Of a stretch of 20,265 bases of DNA, positions 1 through 10,181 are shown piece after piece; position 1 is the first letter of the stretch, and each line of letters begins with the position of its first letter. Under the pieces are notes generated by a model, which worked only from the letters and a program-made list of their open reading frames with translations, had not been told where the DNA came from and ran no database searches. The position numbers and the translations under genes were made by a program. This DNA is from a virus: the IMG/VR virus record IMGVR_UViG_3300020438_000365, positions 1 to 20,265 of that record; one strand, written 5' to 3'.

Positions 1-2778
1 AAAATTGATGTTAAAGCACCTTCTGAAAATGATAGTCCTGAAACTAAAAGAGAATTAGAAATGATGACTGAACTATTTAAGAAAAGAACTAGTGCAGTAA
101 AAGAGAGTGTAAAGAACCACGACCAAGAAACATTTTATGGTATTGAAGAATACTTAATGAAATATAATTTAGAATATGATAAGAAAGATATATCTGAATT
201 AAAGAAAGCAGGTAGTGGTGTAGTTAGACATTACAAAAACAAATTTCAAAGACCAAGACCATATGAACTTGCAAAAGAAATGAATATGGATTTTGATAGT
301 ATGGAATTAATTTCTGATAGTATGAAGACACCAGCATATCCATCTGGTCATAGTTTACAAAGTAGACTAATTGCAGAATACTATGGTAAATTATATCCTA
401 AACATAAAGATAATCTAATAGAACTTGCTGATGAATGTGGTTATGGTAGAGTTGTTGCAGGTTGGCACTATCCATCTGACCATACAATGTCTGTAAAGAT
501 TGCAGATAAGTTAATCAATATGGTAGATATTCAGGAAAGTATTATTGACATTCCTAGAAAAACATATGCACCTGCTGTATTTGATAATGCAGATACAAAT
601 AATCCTAAAATAAAAGCAAGTGTAGTAAAACAAATACAAGACCAAATCAAAGTATTTGAAAAAGAATTTCCAGTTATTAAGTATGGTTTGATTGGTTCTA
701 TTCTAACACATAGATATAGAAATGACGCAGACCTAGACATCAATGTATTATTTGATGTACCTGAAAGTGAAAGAGTTGCAGAAAGAGAAAGACTATCTTT
801 ACAATATCTTTCATCAAAGAATCCAAATAACATACAAGGTAAATTAATACCTGGTACAAAACATCCTATTAACTATTATTTTGTAACCGATGAAGCAACA
901 TATAAAGACCAAGAGAAAAAAGCAGACGCAGTATTTTCAATTACAAGAAATGTATTTGTTAAAAGACCTGAAGATTTTACTTTTAATGTTGATGATTATA
1001 TTGCTGACTTCAATAAGAAAGTACAAGAAATAGATGTAGTCAAAGGTGAACTAAAAAGAGACATTGTTGACTATGACGAATTAAAAGAATTAAGTCCTGA
1101 CGATATAGAAAACTTACAAGCAAGAGTAGAGAGTAAGTTAGAAGAAATAGAAACTGATATAGAGGACATAATAAAGATTGGTGACGGTGTTGACGCAGAA
1201 AGAAGAAGTGCGTTTGATACAGATATGTCGCCAGACGAAATCAGAAAGTATAGTATTAAAAACAGATTACCTAAAAATGTAATCTATAAGATGTTAGAGA
1301 AATATCATTACATTACTTTCTTTAAGAAGTGCAAGAAGATTTTAGATGACGGTATAGTTACCGATAAAGAAATTGATAGTCTAAAAACTGAAGCAGTAGG
1401 CACACCTAAAAAACATATCGCATTTACATTTGGTAGATTTAATCCACCAACGATAGGCCACGAAAAGTTAATTAACAAAGTGGCGTCTGTAGGTGCTAAT
1501 GATTATCTCATTGTGCCAAGTGGTTCGCAAGACCCAAAGAAAAATCCATTAAAAGTTAACGACAAGATTAGAGTTATGAAATCTATGTTTCCTAGACACG
1601 CAAGTAAGATAAAACAAATTACTGGTGCTAGAACAGCAATTGAAGTTGTTAATAAATTAAATGGCAAAGCAAACGAAATAACAATGGTAGTTGGTTCAGA
1701 TAGAGTAAGAGAATTTGAAACACTACTAAACAAGTACAACGGTGTACAAGCAAGAGGAACAAATTACGAGTTTGATAAAATCAATATCGTATCTGCTGGC
1801 GAAAGAGACCCAGACGCTGAAGGCGCTATGGGAATGTCAGCAAGTAAAATGAGAGCTGCGGCTCAATCTAATGACCTTAAATCTTTTAAACAAGGTCTAC
1901 CTACATCTTTTAGAGATAAAGATAAACTATTTGGATTAATTAGAAAAGGAATGAACTTGGCTGCAGGTTATACTGGACCAGGTATCGGAACATATCAACC
2001 TATCGCTAGTGTTGAAAGCTTTACTAAATGGCATTTAAGAGACTTGTATATCCGTGAACAACTATTTAACATAAACGATAGTGTTGAAGACCAAGAACAA
2101 GAGATTACAGGTAAAGTAATTCGTAGAAGTACAAACTATGTTGTATTAGAAGACAATAATTCTAACTTACATAAATGTTGGATATGGAATTGTATTCCAC
2201 AGACTAACATAGATGAAACTAAATTACACGAAATTAATTTAAATGTAGACTATGGTTTTGAAGCAGTATCAGAAACGGAAGTCAAAATGAATGAAGAATA
2301 TGGTAAGAAATTACCACAAGATAAAGATGTAAAATCTAAAAAAGGTACACAACCTAAAAAGTATTACAAAGATATGAAGAAAGGTGAAAAAGAAAAAAGA
2401 GCAAAACACTTTTCTAAACAAAAATATAATAAATCAGATAATGATAAAGATTACAAAGCTGCACCAGGAGATAAAGACGCAAAGACAACTACTAGTGTAC
2501 ATACAAAGAAATATCAACAAATGTATGGTAAAGAATCTTACGAGATAGGTAAAGATTATGCAGACCATACTAAAAGAGTAACCCCAGGACAGCGTGCAGA
2601 AACGAGTCCAGAGACAATAAACCAAGAAGATATACAGAAATGGGCTTCTTCAAGTGAGACTATTGATAAATATAAGAAACGATACGGAGAAGAATATCAA
2701 GTAGAATTGAATGACGCTGTGAAAAAAATGGAGGAGAGATTGAAAGTACAATCTTTTAAAGAATATGTTAAGATTTAG
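1..2778 (+). CDS. Fused PAP2-type phosphatase / nucleotidyltransferase / TxGH nucleotidylyltransferase protein (5' partial)
   Basis: The reading frame is open from base 1, so the true start lies upstream; at least 925 residues are present. Three enzyme-like modules are visible in order. (a) A PAP2/acid-phosphatase motif set: K-x6-RP near 232-267, PSGH at 340-351, and R-x5-H-x3-D at 448-480. (b) A DNA polymerase beta-type nucleotidyltransferase core: GS at about 694-699 and D-L-D at 730-738. (c) A cytidylyltransferase-like domain with GRFNPPTIGH ending at 1461 and the SASKMR signature near 1837-1854. The last 170 residues are rich in lysine and match, from memory, a tail found in marine T4-like phage proteins. 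All catalytic residues of the PAP2 motif are intact. Substrates cannot be read from sequence; phospholipid, nucleotide or NAD-type metabolites are possible. The stop codon lies inside the next gene (14-base overlap), implying coupled translation. Confidence 0.85.
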   Translation, partial: KIDVKAPSENDSPETKRELEMMTELFKKRTSAVKESVKNHDQETFYGIEEYLMKYNLEYDKKDISELKKAGSGVVRHYKNKFQRPRPYELAKEMNMDFDSMELISDSMKTPAYPSGHSLQSRLIAEYYGKLYPKHKDNLIELADECGYGRVVAGWHYPSDHTMSVKIADKLINMVDIQESIIDIPRKTYAPAVFDNADTNNPKIKASVVKQIQDQIKVFEKEFPVIKYGLIGSILTHRYRNDADLDINVLFDVPESERVAERERLSLQYLSSKNPNNIQGKLIPGTKHPINYYFVTDEATYKDQEKKADAVFSITRNVFVKRPEDFTFNVDDYIADFNKKVQEIDVVKGELKRDIVDYDELKELSPDDIENLQARVESKLEEIETDIEDIIKIGDGVDAERRSAFDTDMSPDEIRKYSIKNRLPKNVIYKMLEKYHYITFFKKCKKILDDGIVTDKEIDSLKTEAVGTPKKHIAFTFGRFNPPTIGHEKLINKVASVGANDYLIVPSGSQDPKKNPLKVNDKIRVMKSMFPRHASKIKQITGARTAIEVVNKLNGKANEITMVVGSDRVREFETLLNKYNGVQARGTNYEFDKINIVSAGERDPDAEGAMGMSASKMRAAAQSNDLKSFKQGLPTSFRDKDKLFGLIRKGMNLAAGYTGPGIGTYQPIASVESFTKWHLRDLYIREQLFNINDSVEDQEQEITGKVIRRSTNYVVLEDNNSNLHKCWIWNCIPQTNIDETKLHEINLNVDYGFEAVSETEVKMNEEYGKKLPQDKDVKSKKGTQPKKYYKDMKKGEKEKRAKHFSKQKYNKSDNDKDYKAAPGDKDAKTTTSVHTKKYQQMYGKESYEIGKDYADHTKRVTPGQRAETSPETINQEDIQKWASSSETIDKYKKRYGEEYQVELNDAVKKMEERLKVQSFKEYVKI
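2729..2738 (+). promoter_or_regulatory. Strong Shine-Dalgarno-like sequence inside the end of the upstream gene
   Basis: TGGAGGAGAG is an unusually good ribosome-binding match inside the first gene. It is 26 bases from the ATG at 2765, too far to serve it directly. It is correctly spaced only for an in-frame TTG at 2740, which would give a 12-residue peptide ending at the same stop as the upstream gene. It could load ribosomes that terminate at 2778 and restart at 2765, or it may simply be Met-Glu-Glu-Arg coding sequence. Confidence 0.25.
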
Positions 2779-3304
2779 TGATTATGCAGATAAGATAACG
2801 GTCTCGTTAAACTATCATATTGAGAATAGCATACCTCTTGCTGAGAACATATATAGAGTACATAGCGAAGAGTTTTATGCCTTGTTTAGAGAAGCAAGAC
2901 ATATGTTTAATGAAGGTCTATTACAATGCGAAAGTGAATGGGATAGAACTTTATTAGAAACAGACATTGGAGAATTTGCTGAATATGAAGGTATGAAAGT
3001 ACCTTTAGATTGTCCGATACAAGAAGAAGACGAAAAGAATCCGCCTTTAAATAAACCAAAAAAAGGTGGACCTAAAAAGTTTTATGTTTTTGTAAAGGAC
3101 GGAGATAAGATTAAGAAGGTTACTTGGGGAGACACTACTGGTTTAAGAGTTAAGTTAAACGACAAACAAGCCAGAAAATCTTTTGCTGCTCGTCATAAGT
3201 GCGACCAACAAAAAGATAAAACAAGTGCTGCCTATTGGGCTTGCAACTTACCTCGTTATGCGAAGTCATTAGGACTATCGGGTGGGGGTAACTTTTACTG
3301 GTAG
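2765..3304 (+). CDS. DUF5872-like phage protein
   Basis: A 179-residue protein whose start overlaps the end of the upstream gene by 14 bases. The N-terminal half (residues about 25-85) includes a stretch reading TDIGEFAEYEG-x-KVPLD. After a lysine/proline linker, the C-terminal 80 residues carry KKFYVFVKD, WGDTTGL, FAARHKCDQ-x-KDKT and YWACNLPRYAKSLGL, ending in GGNFYW. From memory this C-terminal part is the domain catalogued as DUF5872, common in T4-like marine phages. Function is unknown. Its conserved Cys, His and Arg residues and high positive charge suggest nucleic-acid or capsid association, which is inference. The start has only a weak AAAGA ribosome site, so translational coupling is likely. 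Confidence 0.8.
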   Translation: MLRFSDYADKITVSLNYHIENSIPLAENIYRVHSEEFYALFREARHMFNEGLLQCESEWDRTLLETDIGEFAEYEGMKVPLDCPIQEEDEKNPPLNKPKKGGPKKFYVFVKDGDKIKKVTWGDTTGLRVKLNDKQARKSFAARHKCDQQKDKTSAAYWACNLPRYAKSLGLSGGGNFYW

Positions 3305-3603: not shown

Positions 3604-5568
3604 ATGACAAGATATACACAAACAATGAGAGAAGCACTAGAAGAGGTGTGGGCAAACGATATTCAGATTGACGAAGGCAAGATGAAGACTATTGCTACTC
3701 TTTTTGACCAAGGTAAATCAGCTGAAGACATTGCAAAACAAATGAAGTTGCCTGTTGCAACCGTTAAAACTATTCTAGGTGAAGAAGACATCAAGGAAGA
3801 ACAACTGGTTGAATTTACAGACCAACAAATCAAAAAGTTAAAAGCAGAATATGCTAGTCTTGCAGGTAAGAGAATATCTATCGCAAGAGCAAATCAGTTA
3901 AGAAACATCTTTGACAAAATTGCAGACGCACAACTTCCTAAACTCTTCAAAGCAGACATTCCTTTTATTTCAGCAATGGCAGTTAGTCGTATGATACAAA
4001 AAGGTATCAAAGTACCTAAAGGTGTAAAACTTTCAGCATTTGAAAACAAATCTTGGGACCAAGTTATTTTAGAATATACTGATTATGTAGAGTATATGGC
4101 AAAGAACGGTGGTGAAGCAAGTAAGATTGCAAATATGTTTAAAGGTAAAACAGGTGGTGGAGAAATTTCTAAATCTGGTTCAGAAGTTAGAATTGATAGT
4201 GCAAAAGATGTAGAAGCAATCCATAAAAAAGTAATGGATAACTTCCCAGACACTAGAATACTAACTAAAGAAGAAGACGAATTAAACGAAGGTACAGGAA
4301 CTATTAAAGGTTTCACAAATGAAAAAGAGAAATCAAATATGGTTTCACTTGCAAAACAACACGGATTAAAAGTATCAGATGTACCTGGTGGTATTGAACT
4401 AAAAGGTAATATGAGAAAAATTTTAGATATGCAATTAGCAACTAGGTCTCACTTAAAGACTGAAAGTAAAATTGAAGAGGCAGTACTTGCTGGTAGAGAT
4501 TACAAATATACTGGTAAAGGTCCTGTTGAAATCAGTAAAGCAAATTTCAAAAAGATTAATAAAGATTATAAGAAGACTACACCAGGACAAGAAATGATGG
4601 TAGTACTAGACCCAAAAACACACGGTACGGTATTAGCACCAGTTAAGTTTACAGAAGAAACAGAAAATGGTGAAGTTGAATCTGGTAAGATTAAGTTTAA
4701 AGACTTGAAGAAAGAGAAGAAAGATGAACCTAAAGTTGATGTAGACGCTCTTAAAGACCAGATACATATGTTAAAAACAAAATTAGAAAACGAAAAGAAT
4801 AAAGCAATCAAACCAGAACCAAATCCTGATACAGGAGAAGTTCCATTACAAGTTGGATTAGCACAAAAGATATTAAGAGATAAACAAAAGAAAAATGTAA
4901 AAGAAGAAGTTATTTCAGAAGCTACATTTACTTCACAACAAATCAAAATGGCATATGGCGTTGCAAACGATAAGAGATATAAAGGTGGCGATATGACAGG
5001 TGCCATTAAGGCAATTGAAAAAATCGCAAAAGGTTTATCTGACCATCCAGATGTTCAAAAAGTATTACAAAGAACTAACGAAGGCTTTGCTTCAGACGCA
5101 CAAAGAAAAGCTGCTTTCGCAAATGGATATAAAGAACCAAAGAATAAAGAGAAAAAAGAAGATACTGATATGACTAAAGGTCAAATCAAACAAGTACATA
5201 AAATGGCTGATGAATTACCGAAGAAGAAATTTAAAGACGCTTACGGTAAGAAAGGCGATAGTGTTAGATACGGAACTGCTACTAATATGGTTAAGAAGAA
5301 ACTTAACATTGAAAACAAAAATCATCCTGCAAAAGAAATGTATGAAGCAATTGAAGGATTAAAAAACAAAGCAGAAAAATCTGGAATGCCATATGGTATT
5401 CTAAAGAAAGTATACGATAGAGGAATGGCTGCCTGGAAAGGTGGACATAGACCTGGGGCTAGTCAACACCAATGGGCGTTTGCTAGAGTAAATTCATTTA
5501 TAACTAAATCAAGTGGAACTTGGGGTGGGGCAGACAAAGACCTTGCCGCTAAAGTAAAAGGAAGCTAA
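3604..5568 (+). CDS. Large lysine-rich multidomain phage protein, DUF5824-like C terminus
   Basis: A 654-residue hydrophilic protein preceded by TAGGAG. Visible segments: an N-terminal helix; a helix-turn-helix-like stretch (ATLFDQGKSAEDIAKQMKLP followed by ATVKTILGE, residues about 30-60); a helical domain beginning FTDQQIKKLKAEYASLAGKR (about 75-140); an acidic/lysine linker; a small beta-rich part around DYKYTGKGPVEISKANFKKI; a coiled coil near residues 380-405; short modules GFASDAQRKAAFANGYK and KFKDAYGKKGDSVRYGTAT; and a C-terminal 60-residue domain with MPYGILKKVYDRGMAAWKGG, HRPGASQHQWAFARVNSF and GTWGGADKDL. From memory the last domain is DUF5824, and several of the other segments recur as mobile modules in marine T4-like phages. 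The role is unknown. Modularity, charge and context suggest a capsid-internal or DNA-associated protein (inference). Confidence 0.8.
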   Translation: MTRYTQTMREALEEVWANDIQIDEGKMKTIATLFDQGKSAEDIAKQMKLPVATVKTILGEEDIKEEQLVEFTDQQIKKLKAEYASLAGKRISIARANQLRNIFDKIADAQLPKLFKADIPFISAMAVSRMIQKGIKVPKGVKLSAFENKSWDQVILEYTDYVEYMAKNGGEASKIANMFKGKTGGGEISKSGSEVRIDSAKDVEAIHKKVMDNFPDTRILTKEEDELNEGTGTIKGFTNEKEKSNMVSLAKQHGLKVSDVPGGIELKGNMRKILDMQLATRSHLKTESKIEEAVLAGRDYKYTGKGPVEISKANFKKINKDYKKTTPGQEMMVVLDPKTHGTVLAPVKFTEETENGEVESGKIKFKDLKKEKKDEPKVDVDALKDQIHMLKTKLENEKNKAIKPEPNPDTGEVPLQVGLAQKILRDKQKKNVKEEVISEATFTSQQIKMAYGVANDKRYKGGDMTGAIKAIEKIAKGLSDHPDVQKVLQRTNEGFASDAQRKAAFANGYKEPKNKEKKEDTDMTKGQIKQVHKMADELPKKKFKDAYGKKGDSVRYGTATNMVKKKLNIENKNHPAKEMYEAIEGLKNKAEKSGMPYGILKKVYDRGMAAWKGGHRPGASQHQWAFARVNSFITKSSGTWGGADKDLAAKVKGS

Positions 5569-5975: not shown

Positions 5976-6572
5976 ATGAAATTCAAAGAACTCCGAAGTG
6001 ATGTTGTACATCAAGTCAAAAAACTATCATTAAAAAACGAAGCATTTAGACAAGACAATAAGAAGTTGCCTCGTATCTATTGTGATATGGACGGAGTCCT
6101 ATGTAATTTTGAACAAGCTGCACAAAAGGCAGTTAAAATGCCTCTATCACAATGGGCATTAGAACCTAGAAAGAAATTTAAAACAATAAGAGATAAGTGG
6201 CAACCAATAATGCAGACTAAAAATTTCTGGTCTACATTACCTTGGAATCCAGGTGGTCAAAGACTTTGGTCTTTCATATCAAAGTATGACCCACATATCT
6301 TATCTGCTTATGTAGAACAGACTTCGGATCCTAGTTGTATTCCTGGCAAATCAAAATGGGCTAGAACAAAATTAGGTATGTCCGGTAGTAAAGTGAATTT
6401 AGTAAAACGAAGAGAAAAACAGAATTTTGCTAAAGTTGGTGGTATGCCAACAATTCTAATTGACGACTATATTAAAAACATCAATCAGTTTAGAGCAAGA
6501 GGTGGTATAGGTATTCATCATACTAGTACTGCTAAAACGATTTCTGAATTGAAGAAACTTGGTTTTAAATAG
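5976..6572 (+). CDS. HAD-superfamily 5'(3')-nucleotidase-like phosphatase
   Basis: A 198-residue protein preceded by AAAAAGGA. HAD motif I is clear: IYCDMDGVLCNF with the nucleophile D37 and acid/base D39. Motif II is probably the Ser in HILSAY (S110). A conserved Lys region KVNLVKRREKQNFA follows, and motif IV is TILIDDY (D163/D164). The C-terminal GGIGIHHTSTAKTI is a pattern I recall from phage HAD nucleotidases. These enzymes hydrolyse nucleoside monophosphates, plausibly to balance nucleotide pools for phage DNA synthesis; the exact substrate is not readable. The first 30 residues precede the HAD fold and form a basic helix. It has its own sigma70-like promoter and stands apart from its virion-gene neighbours. 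Confidence 0.85.
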   Translation: MKFKELRSDVVHQVKKLSLKNEAFRQDNKKLPRIYCDMDGVLCNFEQAAQKAVKMPLSQWALEPRKKFKTIRDKWQPIMQTKNFWSTLPWNPGGQRLWSFISKYDPHILSAYVEQTSDPSCIPGKSKWARTKLGMSGSKVNLVKRREKQNFAKVGGMPTILIDDYIKNINQFRARGGIGIHHTSTAKTISELKKLGFK

Positions 6573-6579
6573 TCAATCT

Positions 6580-6587
6580 TATAAATA
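6580..6587 (+). promoter_or_regulatory. T4-type late promoter box
   Basis: An exact TATAAATA, the T4 late promoter -10 consensus, located 47 bases before the ATG of the next gene in a 62-base intergenic gap. T4 late transcription needs no -35 element; it uses the gp55 sigma factor and the sliding clamp. Two further exact copies (7278, 12494) also lie in intergenic gaps before likely late genes. Confidence 0.7.
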
Positions 6588-6601
6588 TAAACGATTAATC
6601 A

Positions 6602-6615
6602 TTAAGTTAACTTAA
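6602..6615 (+). repeat. 14-base perfect palindrome in the 5' leader
   Basis: TTAAGTTAACTTAA is perfectly self-complementary and follows a second palindrome, GATTAATC (6593-6600). Both lie between the late box at 6580 and the ribosome site AAGGAGAG of the gene at 6635, so they are within or at the start of the transcript. They could form an mRNA 5' hairpin or bind a dimeric protein; AT-rich sequence makes chance palindromes more likely. Confidence 0.5.
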
Positions 6616-6634: not shown

Positions 6635-7213
6635 ATGAGTTTATGGGGATCAAGCTCCAGTGATGAAAGTAAACCTAAAAATCTTACTACAACTGAAAAA
6701 GCAGAAGTTTTTGCTAATGAAAAAGGTTGGGTTGTAAGAGCAGGGTCTGCTAGAACTGGAAACGGAAATACTTCCGCTACTCCTGAAGTACTAGTCGCAA
6801 TTGGTGGATTAGCAACAGCATTAGCTGCCGCTACAATTTCATCAACTGAATGGGATATATCAGAATTTGATGTATCTGCTGGTGGTACTTTATCGGTAAC
6901 GGTAAACTATAACGAACAAATAACGGTTGCAGGTTCGCCTACAATCGCAGTAACCAACTCACAAGCAGGTGGTGGTTCAGCTGCGTCATTAACATTGACG
7001 AAATCGGCTGCAACTGCTAACACGGTAACATTTACATTAGTTGTAGGTGCAGGTGGTTCAACTATTAGTGCAGATGATGTACTATCTATTGCGGCTCAGA
7101 ATGTCGCTTTAGCAGGTGGAACTATTACTGATACGGTTGCTTCAAGTGCTGCTGCTGTCGCTATATCAGCTGCTGCTGGTTCTGGCGCAGGAACAATTAC
7201 TGCTGTTGCGTAA
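6635..7213 (+). CDS. Virion structural protein with Ig-like beta domain
   Basis: A 192-residue protein behind a late promoter and a strong AAGGAGAG ribosome site. It opens MSLWGSSSSDESKPK, close to the MSLWG start I recall from virion proteins of T4-like cyanophages and pelagiphages. After a segment KAEVFANEKGWVVRAG come PEVLVAIGG and a beta-rich domain (residues about 75-190) rich in Thr, Ser, Ala and Gly. That domain has alternating-strand patterns such as GGTLSVTVNYNEQITVAGSP, typical of bacterial Ig-like folds on phage surfaces. Almost no Lys, Arg or Cys occur in the second half. A rho-independent terminator directly follows, so it is expressed as a single late gene, consistent with an abundant particle protein. 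Which part of the particle it forms is unknown. Confidence 0.8.
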   Translation: MSLWGSSSSDESKPKNLTTTEKAEVFANEKGWVVRAGSARTGNGNTSATPEVLVAIGGLATALAAATISSTEWDISEFDVSAGGTLSVTVNYNEQITVAGSPTIAVTNSQAGGGSAASLTLTKSAATANTVTFTLVVGAGGSTISADDVLSIAAQNVALAGGTITDTVASSAAAVAISAAAGSGAGTITAVA

Positions 7214-8215: not shown

Positions 8216-8638
8216 ATGAAAACTTTTAAAGAACACATAAAAGAAGACAAGATGGTCGGAACAGCTACATCAAATGCTGCTGAAGATAGTAATATCGGTA
8301 CAGCAAATTTGAAAGACCCTAATGTACTTAAAAGAGTTAACGCATTTGTTGGTTCGGTTGCAGATATGGAATATATCAAACCACAACAAGCAGTTGATTC
8401 ATTAAGAGAAAAGTTAATGAGAATTGGTTTAGACATTTCACCTATGAAATTAGAAGGTGACGCTGGAACGGTATCTGGTGAAGTAAAACAATTCGGTGGT
8501 ACATACGGTAAAACAACTGAAACGAAACCTGAAGATGTAGTAGTAGATAATGGTCCTGGTATTGATAACTTAAAATTAGAAGTTAAGTACGAAACATTGT
8601 CTAACGGTTCATCAAAGGTTTACGCTAAATTAAAATAG
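8216..8638 (+). CDS. Conserved phage protein with capsid-targeting-like N terminus
   Basis: A 140-residue protein starting directly after the preceding stop. Its first residues, MKTFKEHIKED, resemble the T4 capsid-targeting sequence of internal proteins (known form MKTYQEFIAE-A): 6 of 10 positions identical, with I-x-E at the T4 gp21 protease cleavage position. This suggests packaging inside the prohead and cleavage after residue 10. The remainder has a helical part (DPNVLKRVNAFVGSVADMEY and PQQAVDSLREKLMRIGLDIS) and a beta C terminus (GTVSGEVKQFGGTYG; LKLEVKYETLSNGSSKVYAK). I recall similar proteins in marine T4-like phages without function. The targeting role is inference from the N-terminal match. 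Confidence 0.75.
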   Translation: MKTFKEHIKEDKMVGTATSNAAEDSNIGTANLKDPNVLKRVNAFVGSVADMEYIKPQQAVDSLREKLMRIGLDISPMKLEGDAGTVSGEVKQFGGTYGKTTETKPEDVVVDNGPGIDNLKLEVKYETLSNGSSKVYAKLK

Positions 8639-9011: not shown

Positions 9012-9604
9012 TGGCAAGTAGAGCAGTAGATTTATTAATAGCTTATAGAGTAATTAAATTATTGGTTACTCCGTTTAAGAACCAAGCAGCGTTTAAAACA
9101 GGTATTATAGACGCAGATGGTAAAGTACTTAAACCATATAGACTATTAAAAACAGGTGCAGAAAAATCATCTTACACAATGCTACATAGATTTGTATTCA
9201 ACTTAAAAAGAATACTAGGTAGAGTAGGATTAGGTGGTAAGATAGGTTCATTTGCTGTTGCATTAGGTTTATTACTAAAAGAAGATAAAGAGTTTGCTTT
9301 AGACCAAGGTAAGAACATAGAGAGTACACTTGTTAAGATATTAAAAGAGAAGAACGAATTAGTTTATTCTATGTCTCTTAATGAAGAGTACTTTACAGAT
9401 TCAACTTTAAAAGTTGGAAGTTATCAATTAAAAGAAGAACTATTTACTGGCGAAGAATTTTTACCTAAAGGTACAGATGTCTTTACTTTAGAAGAACTTA
9501 CACCTGATTCCACGGTGTTAGGTTTAGATATATATAAGATGAAGTACGGTAAAGATATGCAAGAAATATATGTTCCTGGAGACTATTTAGATGAGCGAAG
9601 ATAA
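9011..9604 (+). CDS. Conserved marine-phage hypothetical protein
   Basis: A 197-residue protein coupled to the upstream gene through TAATG. The N-terminal half is basic and helical, with SRAVDLLIAYRVIKLLVTPF, then TGIIDADGKVLKP and SYTMLHRFVFNLKRILGRV, a stretch I recall as strongly conserved in T4-like marine phages. A Gly/Ala-rich helix (GSFAVALGLLLKED) follows and could be weakly membrane-associated. The C-terminal 80 residues contain short beta strands around GEEFLPKGTDVFTLEEL. Function is unknown. It overlaps the next gene by 14 bases. Confidence 0.75.
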   Translation: MASRAVDLLIAYRVIKLLVTPFKNQAAFKTGIIDADGKVLKPYRLLKTGAEKSSYTMLHRFVFNLKRILGRVGLGGKIGSFAVALGLLLKEDKEFALDQGKNIESTLVKILKEKNELVYSMSLNEEYFTDSTLKVGSYQLKEELFTGEEFLPKGTDVFTLEELTPDSTVLGLDIYKMKYGKDMQEIYVPGDYLDERR

Positions 9605-10181
9605 AAAATTAAAAGAATTTAAAGATGTATGGGAAGCTTGTTGGACAGGTTACAAACAAGTCGGCACTAAAAAGAAAGGTGACCGAGTTGTACCTAATTG
9701 TGTTCCAGAAGAAGCGCCTGCTAATGCAGTTGCACACGGTGGAGTATCTATGCCACCTGACGCTGTACAAGATAAGAAAAAAAAGAAAGATGTTCTAACT
9801 AGACTTGGTACAAAGATTAAAGAGAACAAAGATAACAATAACGCTGTACTGAATAGTGTATTAGACCAATTAGATAGACTAGATGTTATTGTAGACGAAT
9901 TAACATACGGTAAAAACGAACCAGAGTTTGTCGTAGGTGAACAAAAAAAATCAATTTTAGAAAAAGCAAAATTAACTGATAGTGCCTTTGGTAGTATCGG
10001 TCAAGGTTCTTATGGTTCACTTAACCCAATACCAAGTTTAGGAGATACTCCTCCAGTTAGTGCAACACGACCTAGCAGGAAGATTGGTTTACAAGCCAAC
10101 AAGGATCCTAGACACGGAATAAAACAAGATAAGAAAACAAAGAACTTAAAAATAGTTAAACGAGAGGATAACAATGAGTAG
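9591..10181 (+). CDS. Lysine-rich phage protein with CWxGYKQ...PNCVPEE motif
   Basis: A 196-residue protein overlapping the upstream gene by 14 bases. The N terminus has EACWTGYKQVGTKKKG followed by RVVPNCVPEE, a short two-cysteine module I recall as recurring in many marine T4-like phage proteins. Next come a lysine run (QDKKKKKDVLTRLG), a helix NAVLNSVLDQLDRLDVIVDE, a Gly/Ser/Pro-rich segment and a basic tail. It is disordered for much of its length and strongly positive. The two cysteines and basic residues suggest a small metal- or nucleic-acid-binding motif, which is unproven. No enzyme signature is present. Confidence 0.7.
   Translation: MSEDKKLKEFKDVWEACWTGYKQVGTKKKGDRVVPNCVPEEAPANAVAHGGVSMPPDAVQDKKKKKDVLTRLGTKIKENKDNNNAVLNSVLDQLDRLDVIVDELTYGKNEPEFVVGEQKKSILEKAKLTDSAFGSIGQGSYGSLNPIPSLGDTPPVSATRPSRKIGLQANKDPRHGIKQDKKTKNLKIVKREDNNE

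Follow-up and report, generated by a model that had tools for sequence, protein, structure and literature searches.

Why would a T4-like marine phage join a phosphatase-type, a nucleotidyltransferase-type and a nucleotidylyltransferase-type domain in one polypeptide, and where would such a chain act? We analysed the complete IMG/VR record IMGVR_UViG_3300020438_000365 (20,265 bases, referred to here as the window), a virus fragment whose left edge cuts into the gene in question. The open reading frame at positions 1-2778 of the + strand is a single stop-free frame of 925 amino acids with an open 5' end. The original prediction had placed three catalytic motif sets in one frame of at least 925 residues, and all the motifs that it named were found there. 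The gene is organised as follows (arrows mark cleavage-type positions):

1-2778, +: fusion gene; 5' end lost at the window edge, 925 of 974 amino acids by comparison with the relative L002
10-519, +: PAP2 domain of the class A acid phosphatase type, covering about residues 4-173 and containing six residues of the catalytic motifs
529-540, +: joint between PAP2 and NT, I177-Q-E179↓S180, a prohead-protease-like site in a low-confidence linker
601-1365, +: Pol-beta-type nucleotidyltransferase (NT) domain and helical part, with GS 232-233, D244, D246 and Asn291 at the third-acid place
1381-1395, +: joint between NT and CyT, L461-K-T-E464↓A465, E↓A conserved
1408-1950, +: nucleotidylyltransferase (CyT) domain, TxGH 478-487 and SASKMR 613-618
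2056-2199, +: small all-beta domain after CyT, also in S-CREM2 gp154
2296-2733, +: lysine-rich tail module (KKGTQPKKYYKDM...), common to HTVC008M gp130 and the Melnitz CyT, mostly disordered

The fusion gene recurs across metagenomes

The missing start, which was to be sought by extending the contig leftwards, is supplied by the IMG/VR relative L002, which carries the whole gene (974 amino acids, 99.6% identical; its residue 50 is residue 1 of the window). Because the window terminates inside the gene, an assembly error joining separate genes had to be considered. However, the same fusion occurs at 55-100% identity in contigs from many metagenomes and is complete within longer ones. This recurrence rules out an artefact for all practical purposes. 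No place in 50,697 phage genome records covers 80% of the fusion. A four-domain form, L013, adds a zeta-toxin/AAA_33-type kinase to the PAP2-NT-CyT chain, as do L105-L108; in our tally of the relatives' open reading frames domain content is what counts, the tabulated order being an artefact of the first-listed piece per domain.

Domain structure of the fusion protein

The first domain carries KNKFQRPRP, YPSGH and GRVVAGWHYPSD, following the pattern K-x6-RP, PSGH, R-x5-H-x3-D. Pfam PAP2 matched residues 77-166 (E 4.6e-9, 36.6 bits, cut-off 27.2), and AlphaFold/Foldseek retrieved the class A acid phosphatases 7f17 (E 2e-6), 1d2t, PhoC and PhoN, with TMt values of at most 0.66. The motif residues were present in 16 of 16 aligned relatives, with the Ser of PSGH changed to Ala in L007 and Gly replacing the Ser before R. 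Motifs and fold thus confirm the assignment to the PAP2/class A acid phosphatase class. Searches of cultured phages with the PAP2 segment gave three weak matches and no others, and a search for a cellular source gave two weak, unlike ones. Among the new loci of a second scan, all intact PAP2 reading frames carried the other domains with the exception of L130 (2660-3580), a stand-alone 306-residue PAP2 on a T4-like contig with the targeting-like N-terminus MSFKSFCNFILE↓Q; such phages thus also encode PAP2 as a separate gene.

The third domain contains GRFNPPTIGH and SASKMR, with strictly conserved catalytic residues. It was matched by Pfam CTP_transf_like (E 6.1e-9, 36.6 bits, cut-off 21) and by the PHROG cytidyltransferase family (E 9e-72), and its closest folds in AlphaFold/Foldseek were NadM, NadD and CoaD. 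It thereby combines the (H/T)xGH motif, the SxSxxR motif and the Rossmann-type fold of the HxGH/TxGH nucleotidylyltransferases. Against the NCBIfam equivalogs for NMN adenylyltransferase (NadD/NadM/NadR) it scored far under cut-off, e.g. 22.5 vs 112 bits. The AlphaFold model of the fusion, built from a 39-row alignment, had a mean pLDDT of 63.7 and a disordered tail. From its secondary structure, the all-beta domain behind CyT may be SH3-like.

The middle domain is a weaker match. It carries the Pol-beta-type motif GSILTHRYRNDADLD and scored slightly below the Pfam NTP_transf_2 cut-off (E 1.1e-3, 19.8 bits, cut-off 21). Folded alone (model m2a8ca407cefe), the segment reached a mean pLDDT of 77.5, with most of the core above 85, and Foldseek returned weak matches to aminoglycoside nucleotidyltransferases (ANT), AadA and MNT. 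It had no homologue in cultured phages at E 0.01, and the single weak PADLOC match fell on the NT core. The three folds foreseen in the original prediction were thus recovered for PAP2 and CyT by both Pfam and structure, and more loosely for this segment. GS and DxD are unchanged in 39 of 39 aligned relatives; the third acidic position, placed from sequence and not from structure, is Asn (HPIN) in all 39. Because this Asn is invariant, NT activity is doubtful, and the earlier claim of two transferase activities in the chain is not supported in that form, the middle domain lacking one catalytic acid.

In S-CREM2, a separate virion-detected NTP_transf_2 protein, gp156 (L084 31013-31726), is encoded two genes after CyT and has Glu where the fusion NT has Asn. 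The NT profile missed gp156 at E 0.01, so we rejected it as a homologue and claim superfamily likeness alone.

The invariant Asn, together with the lysine-rich, disordered tail, could also mean that the protein is a head core or assembly component in which the enzyme domains have only partial activity and a structural role, as cargo or scaffold. We regard this as improbable, since the catalytic residues of PAP2 and CyT are strictly kept, which argues for catalysis.

The CyT domain is the positional counterpart of a cyanophage virion protein

Upstream of the fusion, the gene order in L002 is uvsX-like, gp41-type helicase (both named from position and sequence start), adenylate kinase, MazG, SET-domain protein and zeta-toxin/AAA_33-type kinase; the fusion is followed by tail-module genes. 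In the window, a primase and then NrdA and NrdB lie downstream of the fusion. The CyT of S-SM1 and S-CREM2 precedes the same gp61-nrdA-nrdB series, and in S-SM1 it also lies behind uvsX and gp41. This shared order (uvsX, gp41, CyT, gp61, nrdA, nrdB) shows that the fusion's CyT domain is the positional counterpart of the cyanophage virion "cytidyltransferase".

The cultured phage nearest in primase is Pelagibacter phage Mosig (61%), followed by HTVC008M (48%). Since HTVC008M is the sole Pelagibacter phage among the fusion matches shown, Mosig appears to be without a CyT of the fusion type.

The next gene and a nearby one are of note:

2765-3304, +: next gene, with a C-terminal KFYVFVKDGDKIKKVTWGD module
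8216-8638, +: nearby gene with the T4-IP-like N-terminus MKTFKEHIKE↓D

The KFYVFVKDGDKIKKVTWGD module is also C-terminal in the Melnitz CyT and in some fusions of 1135 amino acids. Judged by its N-terminal peptide, the product of 8216-8638 is possibly further head cargo. Several other genes were noted. A 654-residue gene at 3604-5568 has a C-terminus (DUF5824, LKNKAEKSGMPYGILKKVYDRGMAAW) common to HTVC008M gp130 and the Melnitz CyT, and a 5'-3' deoxyribonucleotidase-like gene at 5976-6572 has an equivalent at the same place in HTVC008M. The CWTGYKQVGTKKKGDRVVPNCVPEE module at 9591-10181 is also found in the tails of some fusions (L024 and L052), and the virion-detected S-CREM2 gp160 has a divergent version of it. 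In L002, a small SET-domain protein gene (6903-7193) belongs to the same gene run, and the adenylate kinase-type gene (6007-6606) has an extended N-terminus, MDTFKQYLFNFLNE↓A; its product may possibly be head cargo too.

Relatives carry T4-like putative capsid-targeting peptides

In T4, residues 4 and 7 guide capsid targeting, residues 8 and 10 guide processing, and gp21 cleaves after L/I-X-E (PMC9026906). The CyT of S-SM1-type cyanophages begins with MKKFSAFLxE↓A or a near form in 80 of 80 loci; this peptide follows those rules and has the spacing of MKTYQEFIAE↓A, the N-terminus of T4 IPII and IPIII. S-CREM1, S-CRM01 and S-CREM2 have divergent versions. Cyanophage virions have been reported to contain odd enzymes, and CyT was found by mass spectrometry in purified virions of both S-SM1 (PMC3037559) and S-CREM2 (gp154), for which the authors do not exclude contamination (PMC10665884).

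A common T4-like N-terminal layout was found in the virion-detected SAM hydrolase, APH-like kinase, gp13, gp136 and CyT of S-CREM2, and its virion-detected Cas9 has LRFASFMAE↓A slightly inside the annotated start. Several non-structural, virion-detected S-CREM2 proteins (OR473000; L084-L087), the Cas9 with its internal site among them, have this layout: gp6, gp12, gp13, gp14, gp136 and gp154. In our main test, the fixed-spacing T4 motif matched 3 of 52 virion-detected vs 0 of 167 other S-CREM2 proteins (p 0.013). A first, loose motif gave 8 matches and was not significant (p 0.09), and a tighter one gave p 6.5e-4 after being shaped on the data. The statistics are modest, and the looser motifs were in part chosen post hoc.

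Within the window's clade, PAP2-less relatives begin with MRFKDFINE↓S, MKKFREIIE↓S and similar peptides, some with just MKTFKE↓S. PAP2-bearing forms have the degenerate MRFKDFIDID, and L002, the full-length relative nearest the window, starts with MPDNFQKKHRMDYVKELL, likewise degenerate, in which neither a targeting peptide nor a cleavage site can be clearly recognised. The kinase gene immediately upstream in L002 (7190-7864) begins with MKTFKHIIQE↓G; the N-terminus of this family is variable, yet L/IxE↓G stands ahead of the conserved part, and in the four-domain L013 the N-terminus is that of the kinase, MKQFKSIIQE↓G. The HTVC008M CyT N-terminus, MKTLKELLRKK, is a poor match.

The virion detection of the counterpart CyT and the relatives' T4-like targeting peptides make head packaging likely. 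To this extent the proposal that the enzyme is packaged like T4 Alt holds as a probable fate; likeness to Alt ends at the delivery logic, and no ADP-ribosyltransferase domain was found in the fusion. Weighing against packaging are the degenerate peptides of L002 and other PAP2 forms, and the fact that the virion detections concern counterparts without the fusion.

The chain could instead be an unpackaged, intracellular auxiliary metabolic enzyme of NAD, CoA or nucleotide salvage, with the counterparts' virion detections due to contamination. The NadM/NadD/CoaD-like fold of CyT would suit such a role, as would the adenylate kinase, MazG, primase and ribonucleotide reductase genes of the locus, the carry-over allowed for by the S-CREM2 authors and the jumbo-phage CyTs, such as that of Escherichia phage A4, that have no N-terminal peptide. 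We nevertheless consider it unlikely, as CyT counterparts were found in two independently purified cyanophages and the xxE↓A N-terminal peptide is conserved without apparent metabolic reason.

The domain joints resemble prohead protease sites

At each joint, xxE↓S or xxE↓A is kept in 96 of 97 sequences, while the linkers vary. P3 is hydrophobic in all 96 sequences at the PAP2-NT joint; at the NT-CyT joint it is hydrophobic in 82 (I/L/M in most lineages other than the window's) and Lys in 14, including the window, the rows being related and so not independent events. Proteins contain about four [LIMVF]xE[AS] motifs each, about half of which are the joints, and both joints fall in disordered linkers (pLDDT <50). 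The SIIDIPRR block after the E is the same at the PAP2-NT joint and in PAP2-less N-termini, and the NT-CyT joint, where IAFTFGR comes after E↓A, is built much like the Melnitz CyT N-terminus, MKKFSEIIE↓ARGDTAVFTFGR. The joint sites thus coincide with the end of the downstream domain's own targeting peptide in unfused relatives, and may be either fusion fossils or working cleavage sites. It is conceivable, at rather low probability, that the chain is a head-delivered polyprotein, packaged whole and cut at xxE↓S and xxE↓A by the prohead protease, the phosphatase, NT and CyT then being injected as separate enzymes.

Comparison with known systems

The cyanophage CyT family T4-GC190 (S-SM1 SSM1_190, syn9 gp184, S-CREM2 gp154) resembles the fusion in CyT homology and genome place and has a T4-like targeting peptide, but is without the PAP2, NT and tail modules. 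HTVC008M gp130 and the CyT of Methylophilales phage Melnitz share CyT and a related tail module (about 37-40% identity across both) and likewise lack PAP2 and NT; HTVC008M has the same kinase type (gp129) immediately upstream. The top BFVD match, A0A218MMA9, an uncultured-virus "putative cytitidyltransferase", is 54% identical along a long stretch, but at 543 amino acids it is too short for the full three-domain chain.

T4 IPI-IPIII and Alt share the delivery logic of an N-terminal targeting peptide and a prohead protease site, IPII and IPIII matching the peptide better than Alt; their mature parts have no sequence or domain relation to the fusion. Polyvalent proteins (Iyer et al. 2017, PMC5512222) combine several effector domains, including Pol-beta NTs, in one probably packaged chain, although the main text mentions neither PAP2, NMNAT nor cyanophage. 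By domain content and T4-like locus, the fusion is like that group in having at least two effector domains per chain in a terminase-portal phage. A literature search of a limited set found nothing relevant on PAP2 plus cytidyltransferase in phages or on cyanophage capsid targeting.

A candidate head-packaged effector

We favour the interpretation that a T4-like marine phage (pelagiphage-like Kyanoviridae) packages the fusion in its head as an effector enzyme; the packaging and injection of the protein, its enzymatic activity and its substrates are what we infer from the evidence above. The ancestor would have been a nucleotidylyltransferase of the virion that bore a capsid-targeting peptide of T4 type; it would have been joined first by the Pol-beta-type domain and second by the PAP2 phosphatase; in one lineage, the neighbouring P-loop kinase would have joined as well. 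The protein would enter the prohead core, possibly be cut there, and then be injected with the DNA. In the early phase of infection its domains may work on small phosphorylated compounds of the host's nucleotide or cofactor metabolism.

The PAP2-NT-CyT chain is therefore probably, but not certainly, T4-like head cargo in a new multi-domain form, and illustrates how such cargo may be assembled domain after domain. Cleavage at the joints, if it occurs, would make the chain a phage head polyprotein. That several virion enzymes have a T4-type targeting peptide in common points to a simple rule by which the head cargo of abundant marine phages could be predicted from sequence.
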